A DNA stretch of 64,000 nucleotides from Treponema sp. CETP13 (GTDB lineage Bacteria; Spirochaetota; Spirochaetia; Treponematales; Treponemataceae): contig MLPZ01000017.1 of NCBI GenBank assembly GCA_001885315.1, forward strand, positions 1-64,000. Direction: 5' to 3'. Position 1 is the stretch's first letter. The number at the start of each line of letters is the position of its first letter. The notes under the pieces are model-generated. The model did not search any database and was not told the origin of the DNA. It saw only the letters and a program-made list of their open reading frames with translations. This document shows positions 15,267 through 52,374 of this stretch, one piece after another. A program made the translations under genes and the position numbers.

Positions 15267-18200
15267 TTAATTACCAATGTATGCCTTAAAGTATTCAGTT
15301 TCATCTGCACAAGGACAGTTTCTAACCTGAACATAAACAGGGATTTTGTATTTTGCATAACCGTTTCCTGCAGCATAGTTTGCATATTCTACTACAAGGT
15401 TTCCTACAAAAGAGGTCTCTTTAATGGTTTCATTACGGACTTCGATGAACTTATCATCATCAATAATCAGACGGTACATATTGTTAATACCGTTTGTCTC
15501 CCAAGACCACGAACCAGAATTTGAAGTTCTATATCCGTATACAGAGTATTCATGATTATGATACAGAATAAAATCATGAGTGTTATACGAACTTCCACTG
15601 CTTGCACCGTCAACCTTATCACTTTGAACTGCACCTGCCCCTATTCCATCTTCAAGGTTTGATGTTACACGTTCAAAAGTAACGCTTTTAATATAAACAT
15701 CAGAATAAGGTTCATTTGCTGCATTTACTTCAACCTGTCCTGTAAGATATTCTCCGTCTCCCAAGAAAATCGTATTAGAAGAAGGAGAATAATAAGAATA
15801 CTTTGAATAGAGGGTATTCAAAACCGGAACATTAACATTTGCAAGCTTAAACGGCACCTGTCTTGTTATTATAGGTTTGAAAGTATGAGAAGGATAATAA
15901 ACCTTAAACTTGATGTTCTGTGTACCAAATTCCTGAGCAGCAGTACTTCCTGCTCCAGAAGAAACAACATTCTCATTTACAGCTTTTATCTGAATATTGC
16001 AGTTTGCTTCTCCCTGAACTTCAAATTCAAGAGTGCCGGAAACTATACCAGTTGAGTTTGTGTCAACATTGTTTACATGTTCAGTTATTTCCCATTCATT
16101 ATCAGAAATCTTCTTACCGTTTTTAAGTACAAGTTTTTCTCCAACTGGACCTGTTGTTGTATTGGTAACAATAATTTTTGCACAGGCAGGACGAAGTTCA
16201 TAGTTTACATACATCAGTTCAGGCTTGTTATGAACATCCTTTGGAGTAGAAGAAACTATAGTCTTATCAACAGTAAAATGATAGTTATAAGAGTTGAAGA
16301 CAGAAACAGAGTCTGTCTGTAAAGAAGCATCCGTAACCTGCAGAATAGAATTACCCTCTGTTGTTTTTCCGGTTACAGCAATTGTTCCTACACCATCAGG
16401 ATAATAATAAATATCTTTAGTTACAGGGTCAGTCCAGCTTGAAAGATATCCCGCTCCTTCAGTGTTCATATCAAAATAGCTTGAGTCACCTCTATACCAT
16501 TTTGTAATTTTATCCTTCGTCGGAACTGTTTCCCAATGCAAAGGTTTTGTTTCACCTGGGAAAAGCTGCAAAGATGTAAGATAGTATTTTTCTCTGTTAT
16601 CTACCAGAACACCATTATTGTATGTAAAATTTGTTTCATCATCATAAACAAAGAATTCAATCCGAGGAGCTTCGCTAATCTTTACTTTACAGCTTGCAGT
16701 AGAACCGTTAGAAGGAATCGTACAATAAACCGTAGCAGAACCCGGTTTCAAAGCAGAAACGGATGCTTTATTTCCCTTTGAAACAAAGCTGAAGAAATCC
16801 TGTTCTACAGAAGGGTCTTCATCATTTACGACCTTCCATTCAAGTTCTTCACCAGTATCATTTTTTACGGTAGCAATGATTGTCTGAGTATCTTCACCTA
16901 TAAGAACAGGAAGTTCCTGGTAATTCAGTGTAACAGTCGGTTCTGAAACTCCTGTTACTACAACATAAATTGTAAGAGGATTGATTGCATTTCCGTTTTC
17001 AGGAGCATGAGTTACAGTCATTGTTGTTTTTCCGGCATTAAGTGCCTGGATCTGAACATCACTTCCTGTTTTTTTTGTTGAAGTAAACTTTACATAATTG
17101 CCGGAGCTTTCATTTATTGTCCAGCCTAAACCTGCTGAATTAACATCAACAGTAGTACCATAAAGCTTTGCAGAAATATTTCTTACTTCGTCTTTATTTA
17201 AAGTAACAATAGTTGAGGAAGTATCAGGATATAAACCGATATAAGGTTTTGTTTCATCTTTCTTTGTAACGCTTACAAGAAGCTGAGCTTCAGCCTGCTT
17301 AATACCGCCTTTCGTCTGCAGTGTAGCAGTAATTGTACATGATTTTGATGTAACACCAACAGGGAGTGTTCCCGGATGCAGTGTACAGACCATATTGTTT
17401 CCAAATACGGTACACAAAGAGTTATCAGAAGATTTATAAGAAATATCACAGTCTACACCGGTAGCCGGAACTTCCATATTAATGAAAGTATCAGAACCTG
17501 TAGTAATATCAACATAACTTGAAGCAAAAGCAAAGTCTGTATAATTGCTGATGTAAAGAACAATATCTTTTGTAGAAGCGGCTTTAGGATGTGAACAGTG
17601 AATAGTTACTGTTCCTGCACTGATAGGTTCAATCACGCATGATTCACCAGTATAATTCATGGTAATCTTGTCATAGCTGTCAGCCCACCATTTAAAGTCG
17701 TAAACATCTTCTGCACTTCCGTTTACCAAAGTAGCAGTAATTGTTTTTGCATCATCAGAAGGTTTCATTTTGATAATGCTTTCAGTCATTGAGATATAGC
17801 AGTTTGAGACAACTTTAGGTTCACAGATTACAAGAATAGAACGTGTTACAGACGCTTTTGGATGTGATACTACAACCTGAGTAACACCTTCCTTAAGGGC
17901 TGTAATCTGAGCTGAATCATTGCTTGCATAAAGACGTGCAACAGAAGAATCAGCTACTTTCCAGTCAAAACCGGTCGTATCATTTGCAGTACCACCGATA
18001 AGCTCTGCCGCTACAGTCTGACTGTCACCACCAACGGTACAAGTTACTATATTGTTACAGCTGATGTACGGATCGAGAGTTGCTGCAACAGGGTCAATTA
18101 CATTGACAATAATTTCAAGAGGATATGAACAGTATTCATAGTTTTCTACGATAATCTTAGTAGAACCTATTCTCTTTCCATAAATGACCGCAACATTTCC

Positions 18201-21119: not shown

Positions 21120-21176
21120 ATACACCCCTTGCTTTCATATATTAATTTATTGATTATTTATATGGTAATTTACACT

Positions 21177-25946: not shown

Positions 25947-27395
25947 ATGAAATACACAATGTACCATAAAAACTTGCCAACAGTAACCTTTAATTTAACT
26001 GAAAAAGGTTATATTGATAATATACTTTCTATTGAAAACGTAAACCACATTCATCCATTTTTATTAACAAATGGAAAACTCGATTCATCAGATAATTATT
26101 ATCCTCTGTATGATAAAATATTAAGATGGATGAAGGAAAGAAACATTCCTGCAAGCAGAAAAAATCTGTCATCAGCTTTATCAACGTTAGGTGTAAAATC
26201 TACGGATGAACTTGCATTATATTCTTTTTATTTAAGTCTTTCAGACCAGTATTGGATTGCTCCCACAGAATTGCATTTAAACTGGGAAAAGATTAACTTT
26301 TACAAAAACGATTTTTCAGAAGATGTTGGAAAAGCTTTATTTGGTGAAATAAACCAGAAAGAGATAAAATATAATCTTCACTCTCCCGATCCGAGTACAA
26401 ACGGGCAGCTTGTAAAAAAATGGGTAATTGAAAATGGAGAACGAATCCTGGTTAAAGGTGGCAGCGGAACAGAACAGCTTGAACCGTTTAATGAAGTGCT
26501 GGCTTCTGAAATCTGTAAAAGACTTGGCTTAGAACATGTTGAATATTCATTACATATAGAAAACCGTAAACATTTTTGTAAATGTAATAATTTTACTACG
26601 GAAGATACAGAATATATCACGGTAGCAGATATATGTGATGATATTGCGGACTGGAAAAACGGCTTTGTAAGTTATGAACATTTTAAGGACAGATGTAATT
26701 TACTTGGTATAAAACTTGACGAAAAAGAACTAGGAAAGATGTTTGTTGTAGATTACCTTATCGCAAACGAAGACAGACATCTTAATAATTTTGGTTTTAT
26801 CCGCAATTCAAATGATTTAAGTTGGAAAGGTCTCTGCCCTATTTATGATTCCGGTTCATCAATGTTTTATAACTTGTCAGACTTTGAATTAGACAGCAAA
26901 TTAGGTCTTGAAAATAACAAGATTCAATGCAAGCCTTTTTCTGAAAATTATATAAAGCAGCTCCTTCTCTTCCCCTTAAAAGATTGTATTAATGAATTAC
27001 ACTTAGACAATTTAAATGATATTGGTACTTTCTATAAAGAATTACTGCAAAAAAACCAGCGTAATATTTCAAAAGAAAAAATAGATAAACTTTCTTCATG
27101 CCTGCAGAATAGAGTTACATTACTACAAGAAATACAGAAGGCAAGAACTATAAAAAACTTACCTATTGTAGCTTCTTTTAACAGCAGTTTAAAATCATAC
27201 GACAACAAATCAGATTTTACAGAATTTCTTAAGGAAAAATATCAAGAAGCTATTGATAATAACAGTTTTAAGAAAGAACTTTTGAGCTTTTACCTTTTTG
27301 GTTTGAATTCAAAAGATGAAAAAGATTTTGAAAAGAAAATCAAAAACATACTAATTCATAAACATGGAATAGAAAACTTAGGCTATGAAAGATAA
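25947..27395 (+). CDS. HipA-like kinase (copy 3), solitary
   Basis: A 482-residue protein with a HipA-like C-terminal kinase core: a probable ATP-binding part near 165 (I-L-V-K-G-G-S-G-T-E-Q) with F-N-E-V-L-A-S-E-I after it, catalytic loop A-N-E-D-R-H-L-N-N-F near 273, and metal-binding Y-D-S-G-S-S near 300. The N-terminal ~150 residues are not recognised and are unlike the short HipA N-terminal domain. No small partner gene precedes it, unlike copies 1 and 2. It is transcribed divergently from trbF. Could be a toxin, a phosphorylation-based regulator of transfer, or a defence effector. Confidence 0.7.
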   Translation: MKYTMYHKNLPTVTFNLTEKGYIDNILSIENVNHIHPFLLTNGKLDSSDNYYPLYDKILRWMKERNIPASRKNLSSALSTLGVKSTDELALYSFYLSLSDQYWIAPTELHLNWEKINFYKNDFSEDVGKALFGEINQKEIKYNLHSPDPSTNGQLVKKWVIENGERILVKGGSGTEQLEPFNEVLASEICKRLGLEHVEYSLHIENRKHFCKCNNFTTEDTEYITVADICDDIADWKNGFVSYEHFKDRCNLLGIKLDEKELGKMFVVDYLIANEDRHLNNFGFIRNSNDLSWKGLCPIYDSGSSMFYNLSDFELDSKLGLENNKIQCKPFSENYIKQLLLFPLKDCINELHLDNLNDIGTFYKELLQKNQRNISKEKIDKLSSCLQNRVTLLQEIQKARTIKNLPIVASFNSSLKSYDNKSDFTEFLKEKYQEAIDNNSFKKELLSFYLFGLNSKDEKDFEKKIKNILIHKHGIENLGYER

Positions 27396-27530: not shown

Positions 27531-27911
27531 ATGATTACTGAAAATATTTCAAATCTACTCAGTAAAATTAATTGGGATTACAATTACTCAGAAAAAGAGC
27601 TTCTTTCTCTTATCAACAAAAAAAACGATTTTTCAAATCAAAGACTTTCACTTTATATCAAAAGTTTAGAAACTTTTACATGGCAGGAACTAGTTTCTTT
27701 GTGGGGCCTGGAAGAATGCAACAATCTTTATACAGATAAAATCAGAAAAGGATTGTTTTCAAATAAAATAAGGGAACAGTATGATGGAATATTCAACTTA
27801 TTACGAAACAAAACTTTATCCTACACAAAACGAAGTCCTGAAGACCTTGAAAAGTTTAAATCTACCCTTTTATTTAACAGGCGGAACCGCACTAAGCAGA
27901 GGGTATTTTAA
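27531..27911 (+). CDS. Probable partner (antitoxin side) of an AbiEii-like protein
   Basis: A 126-codon frame that begins M-I-T-E-N-I-S-N-L-L and contains F-T-W-Q-E-L-V-S-L-W-G-L-E near 53, typical of small proteins encoded just before AbiEii-type nucleotidyltransferases. The last ~42 codons overlap the downstream frame by about 130 bp and may be out of the original coding use or result from the rearrangement at 27.9 kb. The strong promoter suggests it is still expressed. Antitoxin function is inferred from its position and remembered gene pairs. Confidence 0.55.
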   Translation: MITENISNLLSKINWDYNYSEKELLSLINKKNDFSNQRLSLYIKSLETFTWQELVSLWGLEECNNLYTDKIRKGLFSNKIREQYDGIFNLLRNKTLSYTKRSPEDLEKFKSTLLFNRRNRTKQRVF

Positions 27912-27972
27912 TCCCTCAGTCTATCAGGTTCAACTCTGTTTTGATTTTTTTGTGGAATTCGTTTATCAATAG
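27784..27972 (+). pseudogene. AbiEii-like nucleotidyltransferase toxin, 5' fragment
   Basis: The frame M-E-Y-S-T-Y-Y-E-T-K-L-Y-P-T-Q-N-E-V ... F-Y-L-T-G-G-T-A-L-S-R-G-Y-F-N matches the start of AbiEii/AbiGii-type nucleotidyltransferases, where G-G-T-A-L precedes the catalytic Asp pair (usually within D-D-L-D-F-F). Here the match ends at F-N (about 27,911) and the frame runs into sequence antisense to the kinase gene 27908-29113, stopping after 63 codons. The catalytic Asp residues are therefore missing and the toxin cannot be active. The break coincides with the 3' end of the kinase gene, so insertion of the kinase module probably removed the rest. Confidence 0.7.
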
Positions 27973-29113
27973 ATTTTTGCCTGTTATTTTTAACATATTC
28001 AGAAAAATCAGTGTTATTGTTAATTCCAAGAGAATTTAAATATTTATTAAGCATTTTCTGCTTAACCTCTTTTTCAAAGGGATTTATATTGACAAGTTCA
28101 TCATGTGCTTTCTTTGCAGCTTCTTTTATGCTCATTTGATTTGCATATTCATAAACTTTATTTAAGTATTCTTTTCCAAAAGATTCGTAAGTCAGATTAT
28201 TATCAACATCAATGTTTTGGTTCCTTTGTAAAAGTTTGTTATATGAATATTCTAAAATCAACTCTTTTCTTGTGCTCACAATTTTTTTAAAGAAATCCTT
28301 TTGAATTTCAGAAATAAATGGCGTATTGTCGATTATATGATTTATTTTCTCAATATTAATTCTAGGATAAATTCTTTTAAGGGCGTTATTGCAGTCCTCA
28401 TTTTCCAGTGATGAAATGAACTTGAAATAATTTATTTTATTACCGTTCAATTTCAGTGCAGAAGTTGGTATTTCATATACACGAAAAAGAAGCTGCTCCC
28501 TATCAGAAAGGACAGATTTCATTGTTTCTATATCAGCAGACGGGTACATAGAACTTCCACAATCATAAATAGGTGCAAGTCGCACAGTATCTGTTTTAGA
28601 ATCATATAAACTGGCCCAGTTTCCATTATGTCTATCCCAATTCCCAATCAAGGCATCTCCAATAAACAAATCCCAGAAATAGTTTTTTAAATAAACAGGT
28701 TCAAATGAATCTTGCCTGTCTATTGCGTCAAGAACTTCTGATAATTCTGTTCCCGTGCCATTATGTCCTGAATCAATAATTGTATTTTTTAGGGATGAAA
28801 ACGGTTGAATCGCATATTTATTATTTTCTGTAAAATCTTTACAAGCAACAACAATCTTCTTCTTCTCATCGTTATTGTATATGCCAAGAATAGTTTTCTG
28901 AGTTTCAAATCCAAGAGACTCAAGAATATGACAACCAATGTATTCAGAAACAGTTCCATTTGTATAACTTAATTCTTTATTCCGAGTCGAGGCAGGAGGA
29001 AATTTCAACATATAAAGTTCGCCATTATATTTTATGCAGATTTTACTCCCATTTGCACCTTCATAATTTTTTTTTGTTTTTTCGCAATTTGAAAAATCTA
29101 TTAAATCAGACAT
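27908..29113 (-). CDS. HipA/CtkA-like protein kinase (copy 2)
   Basis: A 401-residue kinase related to copy 1: Y-M-L-K-F-P-P near 33 (ATP lysine), V-S-E-Y-I-G-C-H near 55, N-W-D-R-H-N-G-N-W near 157 (catalytic loop) and Y-D-C-G-S-S near 183 (metal binding). The C-terminal ~100 residues are extra relative to copy 1; they are helical and end V-E-P-D-R-L-R-D. It overlaps its small partner gene by 8 bp, as expected for a toxin-antitoxin pair. The last codons overlap the broken AbiEii frame on the other strand. Its closing P-D-R-L resembles the end of trbD (I-E-P-D-R-L-E-G), which may reflect recombination at short homology. Confidence 0.75.
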   Translation of the reverse strand: MSDLIDFSNCEKTKKNYEGANGSKICIKYNGELYMLKFPPASTRNKELSYTNGTVSEYIGCHILESLGFETQKTILGIYNNDEKKKIVVACKDFTENNKYAIQPFSSLKNTIIDSGHNGTGTELSEVLDAIDRQDSFEPVYLKNYFWDLFIGDALIGNWDRHNGNWASLYDSKTDTVRLAPIYDCGSSMYPSADIETMKSVLSDREQLLFRVYEIPTSALKLNGNKINYFKFISSLENEDCNNALKRIYPRINIEKINHIIDNTPFISEIQKDFFKKIVSTRKELILEYSYNKLLQRNQNIDVDNNLTYESFGKEYLNKVYEYANQMSIKEAAKKAHDELVNINPFEKEVKQKMLNKYLNSLGINNNTDFSEYVKNNRQKSIDKRIPQKNQNRVEPDRLRD

Positions 29114-41103: not shown

Positions 41104-42366
41104 CTAAGAATGTATAGTTATAAGAGGACGTAGCTTACCTTTCTGTTTTTTCTCAGCTCTTACAGAAATAAACTTACCAATATCCTCATCTTTAAGTTTA
41201 ATTCTTGTTGGAATATACCAGGCCTTGTTTTCTTTTCTGTTTTCAATGACTACAGCATTGTTCCAGACATCTTCATCATTCATGTTGTATATTTTAGTAA
41301 CTATACCATTTATTTCACCAGTTTCACCTGAATATAATTCCAGATTATAAGGTGAAACAAGCTTAAGTTTGCTTCTTGCATCAAGATATGTATTGTATCT
41401 TCCTATTGCCTTAAGTTTATCTTTCCATCCTTTTTCAAGATAATAAAGAGGCGGTCGCTCTTTTGAATAACAGATAGCAAGCCCCATCTGTACAAGAGTA
41501 TTGAGCCTAAGAATTTCAGTATTATCTACAGTCTGCTTAGATGCAGAATATTCTGCATCTCCGACAATCTTTGGAACCGGGAACAGAGTATATCCATAAT
41601 AATTTTCAATATGTTCATCAATCTTTGTCCACCTTTTAAGATATGGAAGATTTTTTCTCGAAGCTTCAATTGCTTCTCGGCTCCTCTGCCCTACAAGATT
41701 TGTACAGATATCCATTGCAAGCCCTCTGGCAACATTTTTCACAATTGCCCTGTCAAAGAGGAACTTTTCTTTATTTCTCTTATCAATTCCATTAATAAGT
41801 AAATGAGAATGGATATGGTCAGTATCTGTATGTGTTACAGCCATCCAGGAAAACTTGTGTCCTGTAACAGTTTCAAGATTTTTAACGAACTGTCTTACAA
41901 GGACTTTCATATCTACATTCTGGTTCTCAGGACTGATTATAAATTTAAATCCTCGGTCATCAGCCTCACTTTCATATTTTAAGATTTCACTTTCAGGAAC
42001 AACATCATACTTATCATTAAAAAGATCCGGCTTTTCTACAACAGCCTTTTTATTTTTCTGAGGCATGTAATTACGAAGAAATTCAATATGCTTTGCTTTA
42101 GTTTCTGTATAAAACATCTTCACTGTACACGGCTGCTTCTGGGCAGCATGACCACGAAAAAAAGATGTAGTAGAATTATCGGTAATTTTTTTAGAAGGAT
42201 AATAAAACCTGTCAAGCTCACGGAAAAAAGCCGCAATCTCTTTTCCAGCATCTGTCATTCTGAGTTTTTTCGGAGGATAGAGTTTCTTTCCAAGAAAGTC
42301 ATAGTCAATGACTTCTTCACCAGTTATAGAATCCTTGTGCATACTAATACGACCTTTAATAATCAT
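41104..42366 (-). CDS. Relaxase, VirD2/DUF3363 type
   Basis: The enzyme expected to nick the transfer origin and lead the strand into the recipient. In 420 residues it shows F-R-G-H-A-A-Q near 50, F-K-F-I-I-S-P-E-N near 140 and the metal-binding H-T-D-T-D-H-I-H-S-H near 180, in the order and spacing of DUF3363-type relaxases of Trb-type elements. The region after ~270 (L-V-Q-M-G-L-A, then short beta segments) fits a shortened DUF3363 domain; proteobacterial members are often longer. The catalytic tyrosine was not assigned. ATG 42366 was preferred to the in-frame TTG before it. A hairpin-rich region lies directly upstream. Confidence 0.82.
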   Translation of the reverse strand: MIIKGRISMHKDSITGEEVIDYDFLGKKLYPPKKLRMTDAGKEIAAFFRELDRFYYPSKKITDNSTTSFFRGHAAQKQPCTVKMFYTETKAKHIEFLRNYMPQKNKKAVVEKPDLFNDKYDVVPESEILKYESEADDRGFKFIISPENQNVDMKVLVRQFVKNLETVTGHKFSWMAVTHTDTDHIHSHLLINGIDKRNKEKFLFDRAIVKNVARGLAMDICTNLVGQRSREAIEASRKNLPYLKRWTKIDEHIENYYGYTLFPVPKIVGDAEYSASKQTVDNTEILRLNTLVQMGLAICYSKERPPLYYLEKGWKDKLKAIGRYNTYLDARSKLKLVSPYNLELYSGETGEINGIVTKIYNMNDEDVWNNAVVIENRKENKAWYIPTRIKLKDEDIGKFISVRAEKKQKGKLRPLITIHS

Positions 42367-42369
42367 CAA

Positions 42370-42861: not shown

Positions 42862-43310
42862 TCAAGTAGAAATGCTCAAAAATGGCTAAATAAAAATGTA
42901 CACTATTCCTTATTAAAAAGGCAGTCTTTAAGTCTGTAAGACTTGCCTGTAATAGTTATAATATGAGCATGGTGCAAAATTCTATCAAGAATAGCATTAG
43001 CCACAACTGCATCAAAAAAGATTTTATCCCATTGTTCAAACGTTATGTTGGTTGTAAAAATGGTGCTTTTGGTTTCGTAGCGCATATCAATTAATTGAAA
43101 AAATAAATTTGAATCTTCTTGATTTATCGGGAGATATCCAATTTCATCTATTATTAACAACTTATACTTAGCGTAGTTCTTTAGTCTTGCTTCAAGGCGA
43201 TTTTCTAGTTTAGCTCTTTTAAGCTGCATAAAGAGGTCATTGCATTTTATAAAATATGTACTGAATCTTTGTTTTGCAGAAGCAATACCTATCTTGACAC
43301 AGAGGGTGCA
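42862..43310 (-). mobile_element. IS21-family insertion sequence remnant (istB fragment)
   Basis: The frame ending at 42903 matches the C-terminal part of the IstB transposition helper ATPase: Y-F-I-K-C-N-D-L near its start, then Walker B L-L-I-I-D-E-I-G-Y-L-P and the closing S-Y-R-L-K-D. Matching codons continue upstream to about 43,305, beyond the first ATG at 43229, but the Walker A region and all of istA are missing. The A/T-rich sequence 42862-42902 would be the IS end. Confidence 0.75.
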
Positions 43311-43387: not shown

Positions 43388-43407
43388 TTAGCACCAATTG
43401 GCGCTAA
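43388..43407. repeat. 20-bp palindrome, copy a
   Basis: TTAGCACCAATTGGCGCTAA, one mismatch from the perfect palindrome. It lies just after the helicase stop codon and before the IS21 remnant. Confidence 0.85.
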
Positions 43408-43413
43408 TTGCAT

Positions 43414-45048
43414 TTACCATACTTTAGGTCGATACGACCAATGTGTTTTCCAATAATCCATTCCTCTATTAAATTGAACATGGTCAATAAGAAAAGGAAG
43501 ATTAATTTCCAGCTTTAAAAGCTTATTCATTGTCATTAAATGTTCTTCTTCAGACTTTTTTTCATCTGATAAATTTTTCCAGGCTGTACAATCGTGCATT
43601 CGTTCATAAATTTCATTTCTAATAAAACAATAATTTTTACGCACAAATTCAAAAGTTTTTTCACTGTCAATAAAACGCTTATTCTTTTTCGACTCCAGTT
43701 CATTCTGAAGCTTTTCTTTTTCACTGTTTATATTTTCAAGGTTAGTCCTCATTTCTTTGTTCTGCTCAAAAAGGTTGTCATTCAAAGCCTTTAATCTTTG
43801 TAAAACCTTAATCATTCTTTCCCAGGTATCTTCCGGTTTTACTTCAACCATTTGACAAGGGAGCGGATCTAAATCTTGCAAAATCTTTAATGAATCTCTT
43901 TCTTTTTTCTGAGCCTTTTTTCTACGCTGTCTTTCTTCTTTCGTTTCACCGTTTACCTTCCAGACAATACAAGGGTCAAGAATAGGAAGTGAACAGGTTG
44001 GTTCTTCAAATTCAGAAACAGAATCTCCGTGGTCTACAAAAATCGCATCAGTTTTGCCTTCACAGTTTCTTAAGATTCGTCCTACAATCTGAAACCAGAG
44101 CGGCCGGCTTTTAATATGCCTGCAGGAAAAAGCGTAGCTTACAGAAGGACAGTCAAATCCATAGGTAAGTAAAGCTGCATTTATAAGACCGTCAATTCCC
44201 CTGTTTTTAAGCTGACTGATTAAAGACTTTCTTTCCTTAATGCTCATTTCACCTGTAATGATTTTAAAGTTATATCCGGCATCATTAAAAATCTGACAGA
44301 CTTTCTCCCCCATAGCAATTGTATTCGTAAACCCCAGAGCAGGTCTTTTTATACCGTTTTCAATACCATAAGTTTCATAGGATTTTACCAGGTCTCCCCA
44401 GATCTGATTTGTATCAAAAATATCTGTCATCTGCACATCAGATATTTCCTGTCCATTTGCTTTGTCAGGTTTAATATCAACAATACCGTCAATTGGTTTT
44501 GTATAATATTTCAAAGGACAAAGATAACCTTTTTTTATTAATGAACTTACAGTTTCTTCTTGCAAAAGCTCATCAAACACACCAAACTTATGAAGAGAAT
44601 CAAAACCTTTTAAAAGAGCTTTTCCATCCATCCGTTCTGGTGTTGCAGTAAGACCTAAAACTCGCAGAGGCTTAATAAGCTGGACAAGGTTAAAAGTCTG
44701 TTCCAAAGAAATATGTGCCTCATCAAAAATTAGAACAGAACATTCAGGAACAGATTTATATTGAGTCCTCAAAGAATCTTTTGATGCAACAACACATTTC
44801 TTTCCAGTAAGGCTTGTTTTATCACTCCAGATTACATCTACATCTCCAAACTCATTTACAGTTTGCTCTATTAATTCAAGCCGTGGAACAACAAAAACAA
44901 CAGTCCTACCCTTTGCATTAAGTGCCTGAATAACAGCCCTTGCAATAAACGTTTTTCCACTTCCAGTTGGAAGACAGATGATTAAATCTTTTTCTGACTG
45001 AATAACTTTATCTACAACCTGTTTCTGATATTCTCTAAGTTCTTTCAA
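43414..45048 (-). CDS. SF2 (DEAD/DEAH) helicase
   Basis: A 544-residue helicase: Walker A L-P-T-G-S-G-K-T near 30, D-E-A-H near 112, L-T-A-T-P near 140 and the C-terminal motif Q-I-V-G-R-I-L-R near 340, all intact. Residues ~400-455 form a coiled coil (N-L-F-E-Q-N-K-E-M-R-T-N-L-E), and a short extra domain follows. It is of the ResIII-type SF2 family used in restriction, defence and plasmid systems; no nuclease motif is seen. The start is a TTG at 45048 behind GAGGT. It lies in an operon with the methyltransferase fragment, separated by a 20-bp palindrome. Role unknown; could serve element replication or defence. Confidence 0.8.
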   Translation of the reverse strand: MKELREYQKQVVDKVIQSEKDLIICLPTGSGKTFIARAVIQALNAKGRTVVFVVPRLELIEQTVNEFGDVDVIWSDKTSLTGKKCVVASKDSLRTQYKSVPECSVLIFDEAHISLEQTFNLVQLIKPLRVLGLTATPERMDGKALLKGFDSLHKFGVFDELLQEETVSSLIKKGYLCPLKYYTKPIDGIVDIKPDKANGQEISDVQMTDIFDTNQIWGDLVKSYETYGIENGIKRPALGFTNTIAMGEKVCQIFNDAGYNFKIITGEMSIKERKSLISQLKNRGIDGLINAALLTYGFDCPSVSYAFSCRHIKSRPLWFQIVGRILRNCEGKTDAIFVDHGDSVSEFEEPTCSLPILDPCIVWKVNGETKEERQRRKKAQKKERDSLKILQDLDPLPCQMVEVKPEDTWERMIKVLQRLKALNDNLFEQNKEMRTNLENINSEKEKLQNELESKKNKRFIDSEKTFEFVRKNYCFIRNEIYERMHDCTAWKNLSDEKKSEEEHLMTMNKLLKLEINLPFLIDHVQFNRGMDYWKTHWSYRPKVW

Positions 45049-45066
45049 AACTACCTCGCATTCTAA

Positions 45067-45086
45067 TTAGCGCTATTTGGCGCTAA
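45067..45086. repeat. 20-bp palindrome, copy b
   Basis: TTAGCGCTATTTGGCGCTAA, between the methyltransferase fragment and the helicase, about 19 bp before the helicase start. Confidence 0.85.
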
Positions 45087-45111
45087 TTAGATTTATTAAA
45101 ACACTATGCCG

Positions 45112-45291
45112 TCATCTCCTTAAGAAATGTTCTGCAAAAGGATAATTTTTAGAATGAGTTTCAATCGCTCTTTCCCAGTGATTGATTGCACTCATATTAA
45201 TGTCAAAATTATAATCATGTGCAGCTTCAATAAGTCCCGTTGATTCTCCACCACCACCACAAAACATGTCTACAATATTCAGTTTACTCAT
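45112..45291 (-). pseudogene. C5-cytosine DNA methyltransferase, N-terminal fragment
   Basis: ATG 45291 follows AAAGGCAATGGT. The 59 residues contain I-V-D-M-F-C-G-G-G-G-E-S-T-G (SAM-binding motif I) and A-I-N-H-W-E-R-A-I-E-T-H, exactly the start of phage/plasmid-type C5 methyltransferases. The catalytic P-C motif and target recognition part are missing; the frame stops after F-L-R-R. The deletion end coincides with the helicase upstream region carrying palindrome b. Non-functional as a methyltransferase. Confidence 0.75.
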
Positions 45292-45314
45292 ACCATTGCC
45301 TTTCAATTTTCTTT

Positions 45315-45334
45315 TAAGCGCCAAATGGCGCTAA
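45315..45334. repeat. 20-bp palindrome, copy c
   Basis: TAAGCGCCAAATGGCGCTAA, about 24 bp before the methyltransferase fragment start. Confidence 0.85.
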
Positions 45335-45388
45335 TTACATTTTGCTTAGTTATATTTTTATTTACTCTTTTAGAATAAAAAAATACTT

Positions 45389-45763
45389 TTACTCAAAGAA
45401 AACTCCGTTACCATCAAACATGACATAAACACATTTTTCCGATTCAACATTTTTATAAATGTTATATCCGGTTGTTAATTCATAACAAAAACCGAAAGCA
45501 TCAGTAATAACAACTTTTACAGAATACTTTCCTTCTTCAATTTTTATAAATTCACTGCAACCAGAACAAAGATTTCCTGTCCAGATACGCTCATATCCAG
45601 ACCGCTCTTTTTCCATAACATAAACTTCACTGATACGAAGATAGTTATTATCACAATCATTTCGTACACATAGACTTCCGCTGTTAATTTCATAATTTAA
45701 AGTACAGGAAAAAAACAGCATAAAAACCAAAACACTCATTATTATAAAATTATTTTTTTTCAT
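45389..45763 (-). CDS. Small lipoprotein of unknown function
   Basis: A 124-residue protein with signal M-K-K-N-N-F-I-I-M-S-V-L-V-F and lipobox L-F-F-S-C-T. The mature part has paired Cys (C-V-R-N-D-C; C-S-G-C) and beta-rich pattern with E-G-K-Y-S-V-K-V near 85. Strong ribosome site TAGGAGG precedes it, right behind palindrome d. Small lipoproteins of conjugative elements can serve entry exclusion, which is a possible role here; no direct evidence. Confidence 0.65.
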   Translation of the reverse strand: MKKNNFIIMSVLVFMLFFSCTLNYEINSGSLCVRNDCDNNYLRISEVYVMEKERSGYERIWTGNLCSGCSEFIKIEEGKYSVKVVITDAFGFCYELTTGYNIYKNVESEKCVYVMFDGNGVFFE

Positions 45764-45779
45764 CTGCTCAGCCTCCTAA

Positions 45780-45799
45780 TTAGCGCCAAATGGCGCTAA
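45780..45799. repeat. 20-bp palindrome, copy d
   Basis: TTAGCGCCAAATGGCGCTAA. It supplies the stop codon of the 45796-45987 gene and lies 17 bp before the lipoprotein start. Confidence 0.9.
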
Positions 45800-45987
45800 T
45801 TAAAATTTCCATTAATTTTATCAAACCAATGAGACAGCTTTAGTAAAGCTTTTTCCATTACAGATAATTTCTTTCCACAAGGACAATCCTTTTCTATTCC
45901 AGAAATATATCTGTCAGTTTCCTTACAATAGCCTGTGAAGTGATTAAAGTTTTCAGTATAAAAAAGTTTGCATTTTTTACAGTTCAT
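45796..45987 (-). CDS. Small Cys-rich, probably zinc-binding protein
   Basis: 63 residues with M-N-C-K-K-C-K at the start, Y-C-K-E near 20 and C-P-C-G near 36: five to six Cys that could bind zinc. The second half is helical (V-M-E-K-A-L-L-K-L-S-H-W-F). It is the first gene of the leftward transcript from the promoter at 46017-46045. The stop codon lies inside palindrome d. No function known. Confidence 0.6.
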   Translation of the reverse strand: MNCKKCKLFYTENFNHFTGYCKETDRYISGIEKDCPCGKKLSVMEKALLKLSHWFDKINGNFN

Positions 45988-46016
45988 CTTATCACCCCTG
46001 CTTTTTGATTAGTTGT

Positions 46017-46068
46017 ATTCTAATTTACAAGTTAAAGAATGTCAATAACTAATTTGTTTTACACTCTA
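46017..46068 (-). promoter_or_regulatory. Promoter and shared motif for the leftward operon
   Basis: TTGACA (46045-46040) and TAGAAT (46022-46017) are 17 bp apart on the minus strand. AGAGTGTAAAACAAATTAGT (46068-46049) abuts the -35 box as at traG. It serves the genes 45987 down to 43414. Confidence 0.7.
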
Positions 46069-46096
46069 AAAGAATATATTTTTGGTATCTAAAACA

Positions 46097-46239
46097 GTGC
46101 TACATTAGGTGCTACAAAAGTGCTTAAAAGTGCTACCTAAAAAACAACCATGTAGCACCGCTATAATAGGTAGAAAATAAAAATGTAGCACTTCCTTTAT
46201 CTTGCCTATCGGATATTCGTGCTACATTCTATGTAGCAC
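46097..46239. repeat. Iteron-like GTGCTACA array
   Basis: Direct copies at 46097, 46109, 46120 (GTGCTTA, partial), 46130 (GTGCTACC) and 46219; inverted copies TGTAGCAC at 46151, 46184 and 46232. The first four are spaced 10-12 bp, about one helix turn. The last two form a perfect 9-bp inverted repeat around 3 nt. The array lies between divergent promoters and beside topB, so it could be a replication origin, a partition site or an operator. The stretch 46240-46490 otherwise holds only palindromes e and f. Confidence 0.75.
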
Positions 46240-46306
46240 TCTTATAATGTCATCCATGTACTTAAAATCAAGTTTTATAGCAAAAAGGATTTTCATATTC
46301 CGCTAT

Positions 46307-46326
46307 TTAGCGCCATTTGGCGCTTA
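46307..46326. repeat. 20-bp palindrome, copy e
   Basis: TTAGCGCCATTTGGCGCTTA, in the non-coding region between the iteron-like array and the 46492 gene. Confidence 0.85.
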
Positions 46327-46370
46327 TTTAGATGCCCTTATATAAAATTTAAAAACTAACTAATCAGCAA

Positions 46371-46390
46371 TTAGCGCCATTTGGCGCTAA
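46371..46390. repeat. 20-bp palindrome, copy f
   Basis: TTAGCGCCATTTGGCGCTAA, 64 bp after copy e and about 100 bp before the 46492 gene. Confidence 0.9.
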
Positions 46391-46491
46391 TTAAAAAAGA
46401 GTAGCTAACAAAAAAGATTAAAGTGCTGCTTTAATTACAAAAGAAAATTCAGCATTTATAATTCAATCATCAATGTCATGGAGGTATAAAA

Positions 46492-46635
46492 ATGACTAAC
46501 AACAACAAAGAAAAAATCCTGAGCCTGCTCGCACAGGCTCACATCGCCAATTCATGTTTTGAAAGAAAATATGGATTCAAAGTTAATGTCGGAGAAGTGA
46601 CTGAAGAAAATCTGGAAGAAAAAAACAAACAATAA
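46492..46635 (+). CDS. Small protein of unknown function (47 aa)
   Basis: ATG 46492 follows GGAGGT at six bases. It encodes 47 hydrophilic residues: M-T-N-N-N-K-E-K-I-L-S-L-L-A-Q-A-H, then F-E-R-K-Y-G-F-K-V, and an acidic end. It is probably helical. It stands before topB, separated by a promoter. The strong ribosome site makes it likely to be real, but no family is recognised. Confidence 0.6.
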   Translation: MTNNNKEKILSLLAQAHIANSCFERKYGFKVNVGEVTEENLEEKNKQ

Positions 46636-46683
46636 GTGTAAAATTGACTATTTATTGACAAATTAACATGAATAAAATATTAT
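46633..46683 (+). promoter_or_regulatory. Promoter and shared motif for topB
   Basis: TTGACA (46655-46660) and TATTAT (46678-46683) are 17 bp apart. AAGTGTAAAATTGACTATTT (46634-46653) abuts the -35 box, a looser match to the shared motif. A half palindrome AGCGCTAA lies at 46691 in the short leader. Confidence 0.65.
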
Positions 46684-46709
46684 AAAGATAAGCGCTAAAA
46701 GGAATCAAA

Positions 46710-48815
46710 TTGCTTATACTTACAGAAAAACCTTCTGTTGCACAATCTTTTAGCGTTGCTCTTTCAATCCCTTTTGACAAAGCTCAGGGATTCTATACAG
46801 ACGGTAAAACCGAAATTACCAACTGCGTAGGACATCTTTATGAACTTGCAAAACCAGAAGATTATGACCAATCTTATAAATACTGGGCTTTTGAACTTCT
46901 TCCAATAATTCCAGAAACTTATCTTTACAATAAGATAGAAGAAACAGCAAGGCAAGTTAAAAAAGTCAGCTACCTTTTAAAAAAACATCAGTCTGACAAA
47001 ATCGTAATTGCAACAGATGCAGATCGTGAGGGTGAAGTTATTGCCCGCATTGTATACAAAGAAGCCGGCCTTTCTGATATTTCATCTTGCTATCGTTTCT
47101 GGGTATCTGAAGCTCTAACTCCAGAAGTAATTCAAAAAGGAATGAAAAACCTTAAGCCCTGGAGTGAATACAACGAACTTGCACAAAAAGGCTTTGCCCG
47201 TCAGCACGCAGACTGGCTTGTCGGGATGAACCTTACTCCGTATGAAACTCTCCTTGCAGGTCATAAAGTAACACTACCTGTCGGCAGGGTTCAGACTGCA
47301 ATTCTTGCTGCTATTGCACAAAGAAATAATGAAGTAAAAAACTTTGTTCCACAGCCTTATTATCAGTGTATTGCACACATAAGAGATAATAATGGAAACA
47401 AAGCAGAGGCTACGCTTTATAATCCTGAAAATAAAAAATACTTTTTTCAACAGATAAACGGCTATATAAATCAGGCTCATACATTCAGTGAAACTTCAAA
47501 AACAATAACAACAGAATGTGAAACTAAAAGAAAGACTCTTAATCCGCCAAAGCTTTTAAGCCTTACAGAACTTCAAAAAATTGCCGCAAAAGAGTTTGAT
47601 TATTCATCAAGTAAAACACTCGAACTTGCACAGAGTTTATATGAAAAACATAAATGTCTTTCATATCCAAGAACACCATCATCTGTTTTAGGTGATGATG
47701 ATGTAGAACTGTTTAGAGAAAAGTTTGAACTTCTTAAATCAAAATATTCACTTTCAAAACTCTGTAATGAAAAATTAATTTCAGTTGAAAATAAGCACAT
47801 TTTTAATTCAAAAAAGCTAGATTCGCACCATGCTTTAATTCCACTAGATTTCATTCCAGAATCAGCTACGGCTGCAGAAAAGAATATTTATGAAATCGTA
47901 ATCAGACATTTCTTTATGAGCTGTATGGATATCTGTGTTTATGATGAAAAAACAATCTGGATTATAAACGGAGAATACAGATATAAAACCACCTTAAAAA
48001 CAATAGTGAAAGAAGGCTGGAAAAAAGCTGAAAAACAATTAGCGCCAATTGGCGCTAAAAATGAAAAAGAAGAAGACGAACTTCAAATGTTCGATGAAAA
48101 AACATGTATTTTAAAAAATACAGAGATTGTAAAAAAACTTACAACTCCAAAAAAAGAATTTACTGAAACATCCCTTCTTGCCTTTATGGAAAATCCTACA
48201 ATGGAAGATTCAGATGATAAACTTGTAGGCCTTGGAACTCCGGCAACAAGAGGAAATATACTTTCAAAGCTTGAAAAATACAAATATGTTACAAAGCTGA
48301 GTAAAAAATATTATGCAACTGAAAAGGCCTACTTTCTCTTGAAACTTCTTTTTAAGAATCCTTTGACGGCAAAAATTGCCAGCATAAATCAGACAACCCA
48401 ATGGGAAAAAGAACTGGAATATTCTCCAAAAGATTTTGAAACAAAGATTATTCAATACATCAGAGAATGCGTTAAAACGCATCCAGAAATAGAAAATTAT
48501 GAAAAACAGGGAATAGGAAAATGTCCTATCTGCGGTTCTAAAATCCTGGAAGGTACAAAAAGTTACTTCTGTGAAAAGATAAATAAAGAACCTAAATGCA
48601 GCTTCATAATTTATAAAACAGCTTTTAATGCAAACATAACAACTAATGATGCAATGCTTCTTCTTGAAGGAAAACATACCGGGATTAAAAACTGTAAGGG
48701 AAAGTCTGGGAAATCATATAAAGCAAAGTTTTCATTAAATAAAAACACAATGAAAATTGAACAGATTTTTATAAATACATATAAAAAGAAATCAGCGCCA
48801 AATAGCGCTAAATAA
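46710..48815 (+). CDS. topB: DNA topoisomerase III
   Basis: Type IA topoisomerase that decatenates single-stranded loops; common on conjugative elements. TOPRIM elements are intact: T-E-K-P-S-V-A at the N-terminus and A-T-D-A-D-R-E-G-E at 101-109. The catalytic Tyr lies in L-S-Y-P-R-T near 317. A C-terminal Cys cluster (C-P-I-C-G near 608, C-E near 622, C-S) is a zinc ribbon. The start is TTG at 46710 behind AAAGG. A complete 20-bp palindrome is read in frame as L-A-P-I-G-A-K at ~443-449, and a second overlaps the last codons (S-A-P-N-S-A-K). At 701 residues it is of normal length. Confidence 0.92.
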   Translation: MLILTEKPSVAQSFSVALSIPFDKAQGFYTDGKTEITNCVGHLYELAKPEDYDQSYKYWAFELLPIIPETYLYNKIEETARQVKKVSYLLKKHQSDKIVIATDADREGEVIARIVYKEAGLSDISSCYRFWVSEALTPEVIQKGMKNLKPWSEYNELAQKGFARQHADWLVGMNLTPYETLLAGHKVTLPVGRVQTAILAAIAQRNNEVKNFVPQPYYQCIAHIRDNNGNKAEATLYNPENKKYFFQQINGYINQAHTFSETSKTITTECETKRKTLNPPKLLSLTELQKIAAKEFDYSSSKTLELAQSLYEKHKCLSYPRTPSSVLGDDDVELFREKFELLKSKYSLSKLCNEKLISVENKHIFNSKKLDSHHALIPLDFIPESATAAEKNIYEIVIRHFFMSCMDICVYDEKTIWIINGEYRYKTTLKTIVKEGWKKAEKQLAPIGAKNEKEEDELQMFDEKTCILKNTEIVKKLTTPKKEFTETSLLAFMENPTMEDSDDKLVGLGTPATRGNILSKLEKYKYVTKLSKKYYATEKAYFLLKLLFKNPLTAKIASINQTTQWEKELEYSPKDFETKIIQYIRECVKTHPEIENYEKQGIGKCPICGSKILEGTKSYFCEKINKEPKCSFIIYKTAFNANITTNDAMLLLEGKHTGIKNCKGKSGKSYKAKFSLNKNTMKIEQIFINTYKKKSAPNSAK
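48039..48058. repeat. 20-bp palindrome, copy g, inside topB
   Basis: TTAGCGCCAATTGGCGCTAA, a perfect palindrome, within the topB reading frame. It is read in the one frame that has no stop codon. Confidence 0.9.
48792..48811. repeat. 20-bp palindrome, copy h
   Basis: TCAGCGCCAAATAGCGCTAA, a weaker copy at the very end of topB and directly before the ribosome site of the 48827 gene. Confidence 0.75.
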
Positions 48816-48826
48816 GGAGCAGATTT

Positions 48827-48991
48827 ATGTTTCAGATAATAGGTTTTTTTGTAATTACGTTCATAACAATATTTGTGCTACTTTTAGGAATTGGCGGATT
48901 TATTTGTACATCCAATTTATCGAACAGCAGACATACAAAATACAAAGAATTAAAAACAAGGAAAGAATTAAATGAATGTACTGCAGGTTGA
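48827..48991 (+). CDS. Small membrane protein (54 aa)
   Basis: ATG 48827 follows AAGGAG. The 54 residues start with a long hydrophobic span (I-I-G-F-F-V-I-T-F-I-T-I-F-V-L-L-L) and end in a basic tail (K-Y-K-E-L-K-T-R-K). Its 3' end overlaps the next gene by 20 bp. It could be a small inner-membrane protein or a leaderless lipoprotein-like peptide (a Cys lies after the span). No family recognised. Confidence 0.6.
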   Translation: MFQIIGFFVITFITIFVLLLGIGGFICTSNLSNSRHTKYKELKTRKELNECTAG

Positions 48992-49208
48992 AAACGTAAA
49001 CGTTTTAAAAAGAGAGTACTGGACAACATTATGTACTGTAAAACCCGGAGAGCAGAAGCATAAAGAAAAAACTGAATCAATCGGAAACGCAACGGCTCTC
49101 ATCATTACAGCGTTAAATGAAACCTTCCCAGAACTGAAGAACTGTTCAGAAAAACAGTTTATGAATTTCCAGGATAAAGTTACACAGATTATCAAGAGAC
49201 TTAATTAG
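48972..49208 (+). CDS. Small protein of unknown function (78 aa)
   Basis: A hydrophilic protein of 78 residues. M-N-V-L-Q-V-E-N-V-N-V-L opens, then K-R-E-Y-W-T-T-L-C-T-V, and a helical second half (A-T-A-L-I-I-T-A-L-N-E-T-F). It overlaps the preceding small gene, and its stop codon TAG is provided by palindrome i. It may act with topB or be single-strand-DNA related, but nothing shows this. Confidence 0.6.
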   Translation: MNVLQVENVNVLKREYWTTLCTVKPGEQKHKEKTESIGNATALIITALNETFPELKNCSEKQFMNFQDKVTQIIKRLN

Positions 49209-49224
49209 CGCCAATTGGCGCTAA
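49205..49224. repeat. 20-bp palindrome, copy i
   Basis: TTAGCGCCAATTGGCGCTAA, a perfect palindrome; it supplies the stop codon of the 48972 gene and precedes the 49250 gene by 25 bp. Confidence 0.9.
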
Positions 49225-49249
49225 TTAGCAATAAAAGGAAAGCAAAAAT

Positions 49250-49561
49250 ATGAGTTATTGTAGATATTGCGGCAGAGAAATTATGTATACAAGGACTGCC
49301 AATGAAAAGTGGCTTCCTTATGATGTTACAGGTGAACCTCATTTTTGTAACAAAGAAGGAAAATCTACTAAAAAAACATCAGGTCTTGAAGTCTGTAAAA
49401 GCTGTGGGAAACCGATTTTTAAAATGAAAGGAAAAAACGTTGATTATACAACACTTGAAATACATCAGTGTAAAAAAGCAGACATTACAAGGTATGCAAA
49501 ATATCAGAATATGCAGAAAAAGAAATCAGCGCCAATTGGCACTAAAAGGAAAAATAAGTGA
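49250..49561 (+). CDS. Zinc-ribbon-like small protein
   Basis: 103 residues with M-S-Y-C-R-Y-C-G-R-E at the start, H-F-C near 31, C-K-S-C-G-K near 49 and H-Q-C near 73: two CxxC pairs plus His/Cys that could form zinc ribbons. A Lys-rich tail contains the palindrome-encoded S-A-P-I-G-T-K. It overlaps the next gene by 4 bp (GTGA). Its function may be DNA or RNA binding; the exact role is unknown. Confidence 0.65.
   Translation: MSYCRYCGREIMYTRTANEKWLPYDVTGEPHFCNKEGKSTKKTSGLEVCKSCGKPIFKMKGKNVDYTTLEIHQCKKADITRYAKYQNMQKKKSAPIGTKRKNK
49526..49545. repeat. 20-bp palindrome, copy j
   Basis: TCAGCGCCAATTGGCACTAA, two mismatches, in the last codons of the 49250 gene and just before the 49558 start. 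Confidence 0.75.
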
Positions 49562-50115: not shown

Positions 50116-50694
50116 ATGACAGACGAGATAACTGAAAACAGAATAATAGAATTGTACATGAACAATAAGACATATAAAGATATCTCAGAAATATTAAATA
50201 TTGGAAAAGAAAATATACATAAAATTATTCAAAAGAATAAATTGTCAAAAAAAAGAAAAGAAAAAAATATTCAAATAATTAAAGAAGGGTTAAAGAACAA
50301 ATATTCAAGAGCCCAGATTGCGGCAGCTCTTGGAGTAACACCTAGTAAAGTCTCCAATTTAGCCGGAGCATATAAAATACCAACAAGCTTCAGGCAGTTT
50401 TCAGTTCAAAATAAAGAAAGCATTATTTTGAAATTATATGAAAAGAAGCATCTTAGTATAGGAAAAATGGCTGTTGAAACAGGATTTCAGTATTCTTTCT
50501 GTAAAAGAGTTTATAAGAAATATGATTTAGAAAATAAAATAGTATTTACAAAAAAATACAAAAAACTTTCCAAAGAAGAAACTTTGCAAATCATAAAGGA
50601 AATAAAGAAAGGAGAAAAAAATCTTTCCGAAATAGGTAGAGAACATAAAGTATCAAGACAATGGGTTGCTCATTTAAAGAAGTTTAATACATAG
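50116..50694 (+). CDS. Protein of repeated helix-turn-helix units
   Basis: 192 residues containing at least three, probably four, HTH-like units: near 15 (Y-K-D-I-S-E-I-L-N-I), near 68 (R-A-Q-I-A-A-A-L-G-V-T-P-S-K-V), near 110 (I-G-K-M-A-V-E-T-G-F) and near 170 (S-E-I-G-R-E-H-K-V-S-R-Q-W-V). Each resembles the recognition-helix pattern of resolvase- or transposase-type HTHs, but no catalytic domain is present. It ends the rightward operon from topB. A tandem-HTH protein could bind the palindromes or the GTGCTACA array; this is a guess from position. Confidence 0.65.
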   Translation: MTDEITENRIIELYMNNKTYKDISEILNIGKENIHKIIQKNKLSKKRKEKNIQIIKEGLKNKYSRAQIAAALGVTPSKVSNLAGAYKIPTSFRQFSVQNKESIILKLYEKKHLSIGKMAVETGFQYSFCKRVYKKYDLENKIVFTKKYKKLSKEETLQIIKEIKKGEKNLSEIGREHKVSRQWVAHLKKFNT

Positions 50695-50796
50695 CTTCAA
50701 TTAACATGAATTATGTAAAGAACAACTTTATTGAAAAATAATCCGGTCTTAGTATTATATTTAAAGTATATAATAATTTTTAAGGACCGGAAAATT

Positions 50797-52098
50797 ATGA
50801 AAGTACAATTATCTCAACAGCAAGAGTTTAGAAAAAAGCTCCTGCTAAAAGTCATTAACAAAAAAATAACTACAAAGGAAGCTGCAATTGAAGCAGGCTT
50901 AACAAAAAGAGGCATCCAAAAGGCTGTAAAGAAATATCTTAAACATGGAGATGTTTCTTTGATTCATGGAAACCTTGGAAGAGTCAGAAATGACTTAAGA
51001 AGATTGGAAGATAGAAACAGAATTATTGACATCTTTCAAAACACTAGGGTAGAGGGTGTAAATCCTTTTGAAGACATTACATACACTTTCTTTACTGAAA
51101 TACTCAACGAAATATACAAAATCAATTGTTCTGTTTCCTGGGTAAAATCAATATTAAATTCTTTAGGATATAAATCACCGATTAAGCATAACTGCAGAAA
51201 TCAGCAGTATTTTCTCATGCGTGAAAGAAAAGAACATACAGGAGAACTGGTTCAGGCAGACGGAACTCCTTATGACTGGTTCAAGGACGGACACAACTAC
51301 TGTATACAGGGGTTTGTAGATGATGCTACGGGATATCCAGTCGGCCTTTATATGACAAAAAATGAATGTATGCTTGGTTATGTAGAAGCTTTCAGAAACA
51401 TGGCAGAAGAAGAAGGAATTCCTGAACAGCTTTACCCTGATAAAGCCGGAATCTTTTTTGTAAATCAGAAAACAGAAGACGGAGAAAAACATCTTACACA
51501 GTTTGGACTGATTATGGAAAATTTGGGTGTAGAAATGTTTCCAGCACATTCTCCACAGGCAAAAGGAAGAATTGAAAGATTCTGGCAGACAATTCAGCAC
51601 AGACTTCCCAATCTTTTCAGACTTCGTGGTATAAATACCGTTGACCAGGCAAATGATTTTCTTAAAAACGAGTTTCCAAAAATCTATAGAAAATGGTTTC
51701 CTGTAAAACCGAAATCAGAAGAAACAAGATTTGTAAAAACACAAATGAGCGAAGTTAATAAATATCTTAAGGCAACTTTTCCAGGTCGCTGTGACAGATC
51801 TGGTGTATTTGTATTAAAGGGGTATAGATTTTTCTGTCCTGATTTAACAGATAAAAAAATCCTTATCCACCTTAATGAACAGGAAGGACTTTGGGTAACT
51901 GATGCTGCAAATCAAGAAAAAAGGTACACTCCAAAATTAGTAGAAACAGATACTACCGGTTCAATGCCGGAAGTAATGAAAATATTGATTGACCGAACAT
52001 TCTTGAAAAATGCAAAACCAAAATTCAGAGAAGTATATTTTGACATTGACGATGTAGTTCTTTCTCAGGTCAAACCGAAATATAAAATAGCGGTATAA
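50797..52098 (+). CDS. ISNCY-like DDE transposase
   Basis: 433 residues from ATG 50797, behind AAGGACCGG. An N-terminal HTH (T-T-K-E-A-A-I-E-A-G-L near 30) is followed by the integrase core: first Asp in V-Q-A-D-G-T-P near 153, second in Y-P-D-K-A-G near 214, Glu in A-K-G-R-I-E-R-F near 261, so the catalytic triad looks complete. The D-G-T-x-x-D-W pattern is typical of ISNCY-type transposases. A start at 50731 was rejected since it lacks a ribosome site. No clear terminal inverted repeats or target duplication was recognised, so it may be immobile or part of a larger unit. Confidence 0.8.
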   Translation: MKVQLSQQQEFRKKLLLKVINKKITTKEAAIEAGLTKRGIQKAVKKYLKHGDVSLIHGNLGRVRNDLRRLEDRNRIIDIFQNTRVEGVNPFEDITYTFFTEILNEIYKINCSVSWVKSILNSLGYKSPIKHNCRNQQYFLMRERKEHTGELVQADGTPYDWFKDGHNYCIQGFVDDATGYPVGLYMTKNECMLGYVEAFRNMAEEEGIPEQLYPDKAGIFFVNQKTEDGEKHLTQFGLIMENLGVEMFPAHSPQAKGRIERFWQTIQHRLPNLFRLRGINTVDQANDFLKNEFPKIYRKWFPVKPKSEETRFVKTQMSEVNKYLKATFPGRCDRSGVFVLKGYRFFCPDLTDKKILIHLNEQEGLWVTDAANQEKRYTPKLVETDTTGSMPEVMKILIDRTFLKNAKPKFREVYFDIDDVVLSQVKPKYKIAV

Positions 52099-52152: not shown

Positions 52153-52374
52153 TAAAGCATTGTTTAATATAGTTCAAAAAATATTTTTTCAGACTATAAA
52201 AAACACAAAAATACAGTAATCTAATTAATTATTTTATAATAATTAATTAAAACACCTTAAAAAAATAAAAAAAAACATGGGAACTAATAAAGAGTTGTTG
52301 ACAGTTTTAACATTCTTTTATTCAAAAGGTTCTTAAAGTCTTGCAACATGCAAATTTAGGATTTATTATAAACT

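Follow-up and report, generated by a model that had tools for sequence, protein, structure and literature searches.

Short palindromes that recur at one gene junction after another raise the question of what reads them. Such an array lies in the window, the whole stretch of 64,000 nucleotides of Treponema sp. CETP13 that was analysed here. A first-pass annotation counted ten copies of a 20-bp palindrome, placed them between genes within 6.2 kb, and offered several readings: a mobile repeat, a set of operators, RNA-processing sites or recombination sites. All ten copies are present (Table 1), with 0-3 mismatches to TTAGCGCCAATTGGCGCTAA, and dinucleotide shuffling gave an expectation of 0.00 for the array, the largest shuffle having 0 copies. 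The AATT loop ascribed to the repeat is not fixed. When the copies are aligned, the word is best described as two conserved 9-bp arms around NN, TTAGCGCCA + NN + TGGCGCTAA, because its centre is a variable dinucleotide (AT, AA or TT in the window, and additionally TC, GA or AC in relatives). The confinement to 6.2 kb holds for nearly all copies, but a search of the window's own genome (2.54 Mb, 21 contigs) returned one more, at C4:178252, on a contig where ParA, ParB and further genes of this element are also encoded. Likewise, most sites do lie between genes, although site 7 reads in frame within topB (EKQLAPIGAKNEK) and sites 8 and 10 overlap ORF 3' ends, where they are translated as KKKSAPNSAK-stop and KKKSAPIGTKRKNK-stop, respectively. 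The 18-mer matched just seven scattered single sites with different flanks in viral contigs, which is uninformative.

Table 1. Sites and genes of the element in the window and on contig C4, and palindromes of related elements (G, genome; C, contig)
Feature	Position	Strand	Sequence and context
Site 1	43388..43407		TTAGCACCAATTGGCGCTAA; just past helicase stop; G120 orthologue at same 26-bp offset
Site 2	45067..45086		TTAGCGCTATTTGGCGCTAA; ~19 bp upstream of helicase start (minus strand); G120 orthologue at 8792
Site 3	45315..45334		TAAGCGCCAAATGGCGCTAA; upstream of methyltransferase 5' fragment; no copy in G120
Site 4	45780..45799		TTAGCGCCAAATGGCGCTAA; 17 bp upstream of lipoprotein-like gene; G120 orthologue at 9323
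Site 5	46307..46326		TTAGCGCCATTTGGCGCTTA; divergent intergenic region; 64 bp from site 6, orthologue likewise in G120
Site 6	46371..46390		TTAGCGCCATTTGGCGCTAA; divergent intergenic region; G120 orthologue at 9728
Site 7	48039..48058		TTAGCGCCAATTGGCGCTAA; in frame within topB; same topB region in other elements has a different palindrome
Site 8	48792..48811		TCAGCGCCAAATAGCGCTAA; final topB codons, 15 bp before next ATG; G120 orthologue at 12323
Site 9	49205..49224		TTAGCGCCAATTGGCGCTAA; stop codon of 78-aa ORF, upstream of zinc-finger gene; orthologue in G120
Site 10	49526..49545		TCAGCGCCAATTGGCACTAA; 3' end of zinc-finger gene, 12 bp before Mrr-like start; degenerate G120 orthologue
Relaxase (RlxS-like)	41104..42369	-	T4SS genes continue leftward
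DEAD/ResIII helicase-like gene	43414..45048	-	between sites 1 and 2
topB (topoisomerase III)	46710..48815	+	contains sites 7 and 8
ISNCY-type rve transposase	50731..52098	+	element right end; listed ORF TTG-started, true start may be an internal ATG
Right-end 16-bp direct repeat	52304..52319		GTTTTAACATTCTTTT; second copy at C4:161928, just outside parA
parA	C4:162382-163131		beside repeat on C4, directly upstream of ParB gene
ParB-like gene (354-aa product)	C4:163164-164228		ParB of the window element
G061 palindrome			TTAGCGCC-TTCG-GGCGCTAA
G062 palindrome			GCCGTAA-NN-TTACGGC; also in a G235 element (two copies)
G039 and G033 palindrome			AGCCTCA-NN-TGAGGCT
G102 and G094 palindrome			GAGCGCAA-CG-
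G169 palindrome			GAGCGCAG-NN-
G013 palindrome			GAGCGCGA-CG-
G006 and second G124 element palindrome			GAGCGAAA-CG-
G261 palindrome			TGTCGCAA-NN-
G245 palindrome			ACCGACA-CG-

The array sits in an integrative conjugative element (ICE) of about 77 kb, a length taken from the positions of the 16-bp repeat plus the end of contig C4. The window holds one arm of this element, with T4SS genes (VirB4, VirB11, VirD4 and others), a relaxase, a helicase, topB, an Mrr-like nuclease and an ISNCY/rve transposase at the right end. We infer the C4-C2 junction from gene content and from a complete homologue in G061 (703.8-774.9 kb). The element is bounded by its 16-bp repeat and that of G061 by a different repeat of about 18 bp (at 703810 and 774897); these direct repeats look like a target duplication, with termini near TGTCAACAA...TTGTTGACA adjoining the ISNCY-type transposase. 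Two genes between those of the T4SS encode very large repeat-rich proteins (7786-15249 and 15267-21125; 2487 and 1952 aa) that are 66-67% conserved in G061, and three further genes of the element appear HipA-like by eye (5428-6432, 25947-27395 and 27908-29113). A truncated IstB-like gene (42903-43229) stands beside site 1. The divergent region preceding topB (46095-46245) holds a cluster of the words GTGCTACA/TGTAGCAC, facing either way, possibly an oriT or operators of another protein.

Among the 274 family genomes searched apart from the window's own, clusters of the same palindrome were found in G120, G124 and G138, whose elements carry orthologous topB genes (85, 85 and 69% identity, respectively); in G248 the palindrome occurs once on each of three short contigs. 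For nine of the ten window sites, G120 has a copy at the corresponding position; one of these is the site inside topB, which G138 shares at the same codon. The exception is site 3, which together with site 2 brackets a methyltransferase 5' fragment absent there in G120. The proposal that the sites allow genes to be shuffled finds one case, helicase-P-methyltransferase fragment-P-lipoprotein in the window versus helicase-P-lipoprotein in G120 and G124 (P, palindrome), but the rest of the gene order is conserved with these two genomes. G120 has an additional site at 14200, where the colinear window sequence has none; this site was thus gained or lost by substitution, not insertion.

The match between the window and G120 ends a few tens of bases past site 1. 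The first 55 aa of the C5-methyltransferase fragment (45112-45324) are 91-98% identical in ICEs with topB about 40% identical; this gene is truncated in G245 too, further downstream, and seems to move among these ICEs. Finally, a contig filed as an alphaproteobacterial MAG from water deer rectum (L045) bears a Treponema-type topB and four copies of the window palindrome, which is misbinning or transfer.

About 15 related ICEs of the Treponemataceae each have their own dispersed palindrome, different in sequence and similar in geometry. Copies number 8-19 per element and zero elsewhere for the elements searched genome-wide, most genomes being draft assemblies and some elements having been read in part. 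Such confinement was found in G061, G245, G261 (19 copies in 70 kb, 0 elsewhere in 3.3 Mb) and G062 (8 copies). Arm position 5 is C in every palindrome, and position 6 is G except in the AGCCTCA pair. No recurrent palindrome was seen in the parts of the G225 and G163 elements that were read. One G013 locus (L094) shows a second palindrome, CGGRTGCGACGTCGCACCCG, beside GAGCGCGACGTCGCGCTC in a single element (8471, 10705 and 11001). At the G061 locus (L082), the non-symmetric TTCG-type core points one way in nearly all copies, with genes on both strands, and site 15206 is reversed.

Of 97 such sites in 13 elements, 66 fall at gene junctions (outside ORFs or at most 30 bp from an ORF end) versus 20.8 expected from circular shifts (maximum of 2000 shifts, 35), counts that are approximate because ORFs were called mechanically; 33 sites precede a start codon by 9-60 bp. 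This is the distribution of dispersed operators at the starts and promoters of element genes, as in KorB-type systems. In the window, the genes flanked by or containing sites are those for the helicase, TopB, the zinc-finger protein and the Mrr-like protein, together with the divergent promoter region that adjoins the relaxase/T4SS operon. Sites inside topB recur in two alignment regions, columns 268-269 (8 elements) and 507-516 (11 elements), and these fixed positions host several unlike palindromes, not all in one reading frame. Within genes, some copies (G102, G245 and G261) look like small in-frame insertions in the alignment, and others take the place of native codons with nothing inserted (for example SERDVALL in G013), so that no single origin fits all.

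The first-pass annotation named the HTH protein encoded at 50116 as a potential binder. A better candidate would be a ParB encoded by the ICE itself, on contig C4; the window has no ParB gene. A divergent ParB-type protein is encoded in each element whose other arm was readable. Moreover, when five ICE ParBs were combined into a profile, a homologue turned up in 22 of 22 genomes, on the ICE where contigs let this show, and these proteins are distinct from the chromosomal Spo0J. PF02195 was discarded as a search model, since it detects chromosomal ParB but gives a faint hit or none for most ICE ParBs. Profile searches with ICE ParB match ParB, Noc and Spo0J, PHROG comparison returns ParB-like families (2e-15), and an AlphaFold (AF2) model of the G248 protein, of moderate confidence (mean pLDDT 74), has ParB, Noc and KorB as its best PDB matches (prob 1.00). 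These matches point to a member of the ParB family with a predicted ParB/CTPase fold, composed of an N-terminal domain and an HTH. As for the NTP-binding motifs (GxxR and ENxQR in the reference), a conserved DG[Y/H/A]xR is present and the second reads LQxxRRNL, which is atypical. A ParA gene lies near that of ParB wherever the flank was examined, that is, in the window's own genome G000, G061 (with two small ORFs between), G245, G261, G248 and G255. In RK2, the ParA-type partner of KorB is IncC. ParB relatives exist in other Spirochaetota, and no recurrent palindromes were found within about 10 kb of them in most contexts. In G060, ParB is truncated, its HTH resembles that of the window element, and no site is present; this is perhaps a decayed element.

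If ParB reads the palindromes, its DNA-binding domain should follow them. Across 14 related elements, the distance between ParB HTHs correlates with that between palindromes (Spearman r = 0.62, permutation p = 2e-4), in a set whose points are partly dependent because the elements share ancestry and whose half-sites were assigned by hand or eye. In a sliding scan along ParB, the two top windows cover the HTH (0.72 and 0.66) and the median window reaches 0.33. Correlations with the palindrome are 0.43 for the rest of ParB, 0.32 for its N-domain and 0.24 for TopB, and the HTH-palindrome correlation is still 0.60 when TopB is partialled out. Held-out elements gave mixed outcomes. The second G124 element (G124b), with an HTH like that of G006, contains six copies of the G006 palindrome as predicted, and it joined the 14-element set only after this test. 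In G096, whose HTH resembles that of G013, there is one site with 1 mismatch. The prediction failed for G235 C23, where the expected palindrome is absent. Altogether, comparison of sequences strongly suggests that the palindromes are, in each element, the DNA sites of the ParB-type protein which that ICE itself encodes. Judging from confinement, junction placement, the topB positions and HTH covariation, operator or parS-like loading sites of ParB are the most likely identity, and the earlier idea of a set of operators is supported on the same grounds. Their reader could also be a different protein, one that coevolves with ParB.

The alternative that survives best is a multi-copy parS, in which the sites would serve mainly ParA-dependent partition of the excised or replicating ICE and have no regulatory role. 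The palindromes are parS-like in size and dyad, and ParA adjoins ParB as described above. A parS centromere is expected at or beside parAB, and G245 does have a palindrome between parA and parB. However, no site occurs at parAB of the window element (C4:150.0-168.5 kb, within 5 mismatches), and up to 19 copies with a preference for start regions are better explained by KorB-like control than by a compact centromere. We therefore regard pure partition as possible, though doubtful.

A mobile or RPE-like palindrome, spreading within the element and tolerated at junctions and in protein linkers, would account for the in-frame insertions and for the one palindrome-bounded segment gained or lost. 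This origin is unlikely, because site positions are orthologous while the sequence changes: they are kept in relatives at 69-85% topB identity, and the same topB positions bear different palindromes. Covariation with the ParB HTH and the exchange of native codons in G013 also argue against it, as does the strict confinement to the ICE; instead of the genome-wide insertion spread typical of RPE or REP, colinear site gain or loss was found at G120:14200. RNA hairpins acting in processing, stability or attenuation of a polycistronic transcript are slightly harder still to credit. Stems of 8-9 bp immediately upstream of ribosome-binding sites and the C(TTCG)G core of G061 are what such hairpins would look like, but sense-strand mismatches show no G-U bias (14 G-U vs 20 C-A), which disfavours RNA processing; complementarity extends into the centre up to NN, and the TTCG of G061 faces the same way on the DNA whichever strand the gene is on. 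The 50116 protein adjoins the sites and has three HTH-like stretches resembling KorA or resolvase HTHs, with a weak KORA match. Yet a homologue was found in 5 of 17 palindrome-bearing elements and not in the other 12, G261 and G245, read almost full length, being among those without it; that the sites are its operators is the least credible of these readings. Set aside (ALTERNATIVES) are thus the 50116 binder, RNA hairpins and the mobile palindrome, as well as recombination sites, given gene order otherwise constant with G120. Methylation or restriction sites (GCGC/HaeII-like) were dropped because the palindromes of other elements lack GCGC.

The ParB-site reading has its closest parallel in KorB of RK2, a ParB-family protein of a conjugative replicon whose 16 bp OB operators lie near and far upstream of transfer and replication gene promoters (PMC11790492), and which acts from OB sites 4 bp to more than 1 kb from promoters (PMC11790492). 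Unlike KorB-OB, the Treponema system belongs to a chromosomal ICE, its ParB is too divergent for the Pfam ParB_N model, and its palindrome varies among ICEs, with copies at fixed places in topB. As to a KorA-like clamp-locking partner, the search gave the weak KORA match of the 50116 protein, itself not found in most elements. ICEclc offers a second parallel: the ParB-like BisD is encoded near parA, in a parA-shi-bisDC region, as an ICE master regulator, and is required with BisC to activate late transfer-competence promoters (PMC7423338). BisD is described as a CTP clamp (PMC12704722), and no ICE-wide array of element-specific palindromes was seen for ICEclc in the literature searched. ParB/Noc and their parS/NBS sites follow the same HTH-palindrome logic, and their specificity shifts through few residues of the DNA-binding domain (PMC7383237). 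In the ParB and Noc families, however, parS/NBS specificity is conserved (PMC7383237), whereas one ICE family has at least eight palindromes here. Mycobacteriophage stoperators and start-associated sequences are also short repeated words at gene starts of mobile elements, but they are about 13 bp long and the start-associated ones are asymmetric (PMC3203893), while the Treponema ICE words are symmetric and covary with ParB. None of the papers searched describes this array in Treponema.

In the mechanism that we propose, a ParB dimer would load at each palindrome through its helix-turn-helix, close into an NTP-dependent clamp and slide to neighbouring DNA. By occupying many start regions simultaneously, ParB may control the ICE processing module in the way that KorB does from OB on RK2. 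Partition with ParA may also help to retain the excised element, a compatible second role. We infer all of this, from ParB binding and clamp closure to the sign of regulation and any partition role. A bolder and rather tentative extension is that the family consists of diversifying, mutually orthogonal ParB clamp-operator pairs. Each element would rewrite all its sites, including the fixed topB ones, in step with its ParB HTH, and the clamps would both silence and mark self DNA, so that co-resident elements neither cross-regulate nor exclude each other.

With the ParB-site reading, an odd repeat becomes a family-wide regulatory code, in which one ICE family would use at least eight palindromes, each with one coevolving ParB. 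The code offers a series of naturally evolved ParB-DNA pairs of differing specificity, to set next to the one path from ParB to Noc traced in the laboratory. It also raises the evolutionary question of how a dozen dispersed sites, some of them within coding sequence, change jointly. If the KorB-like function is true, the array would reveal how spirochaete ICEs silence their transfer genes.
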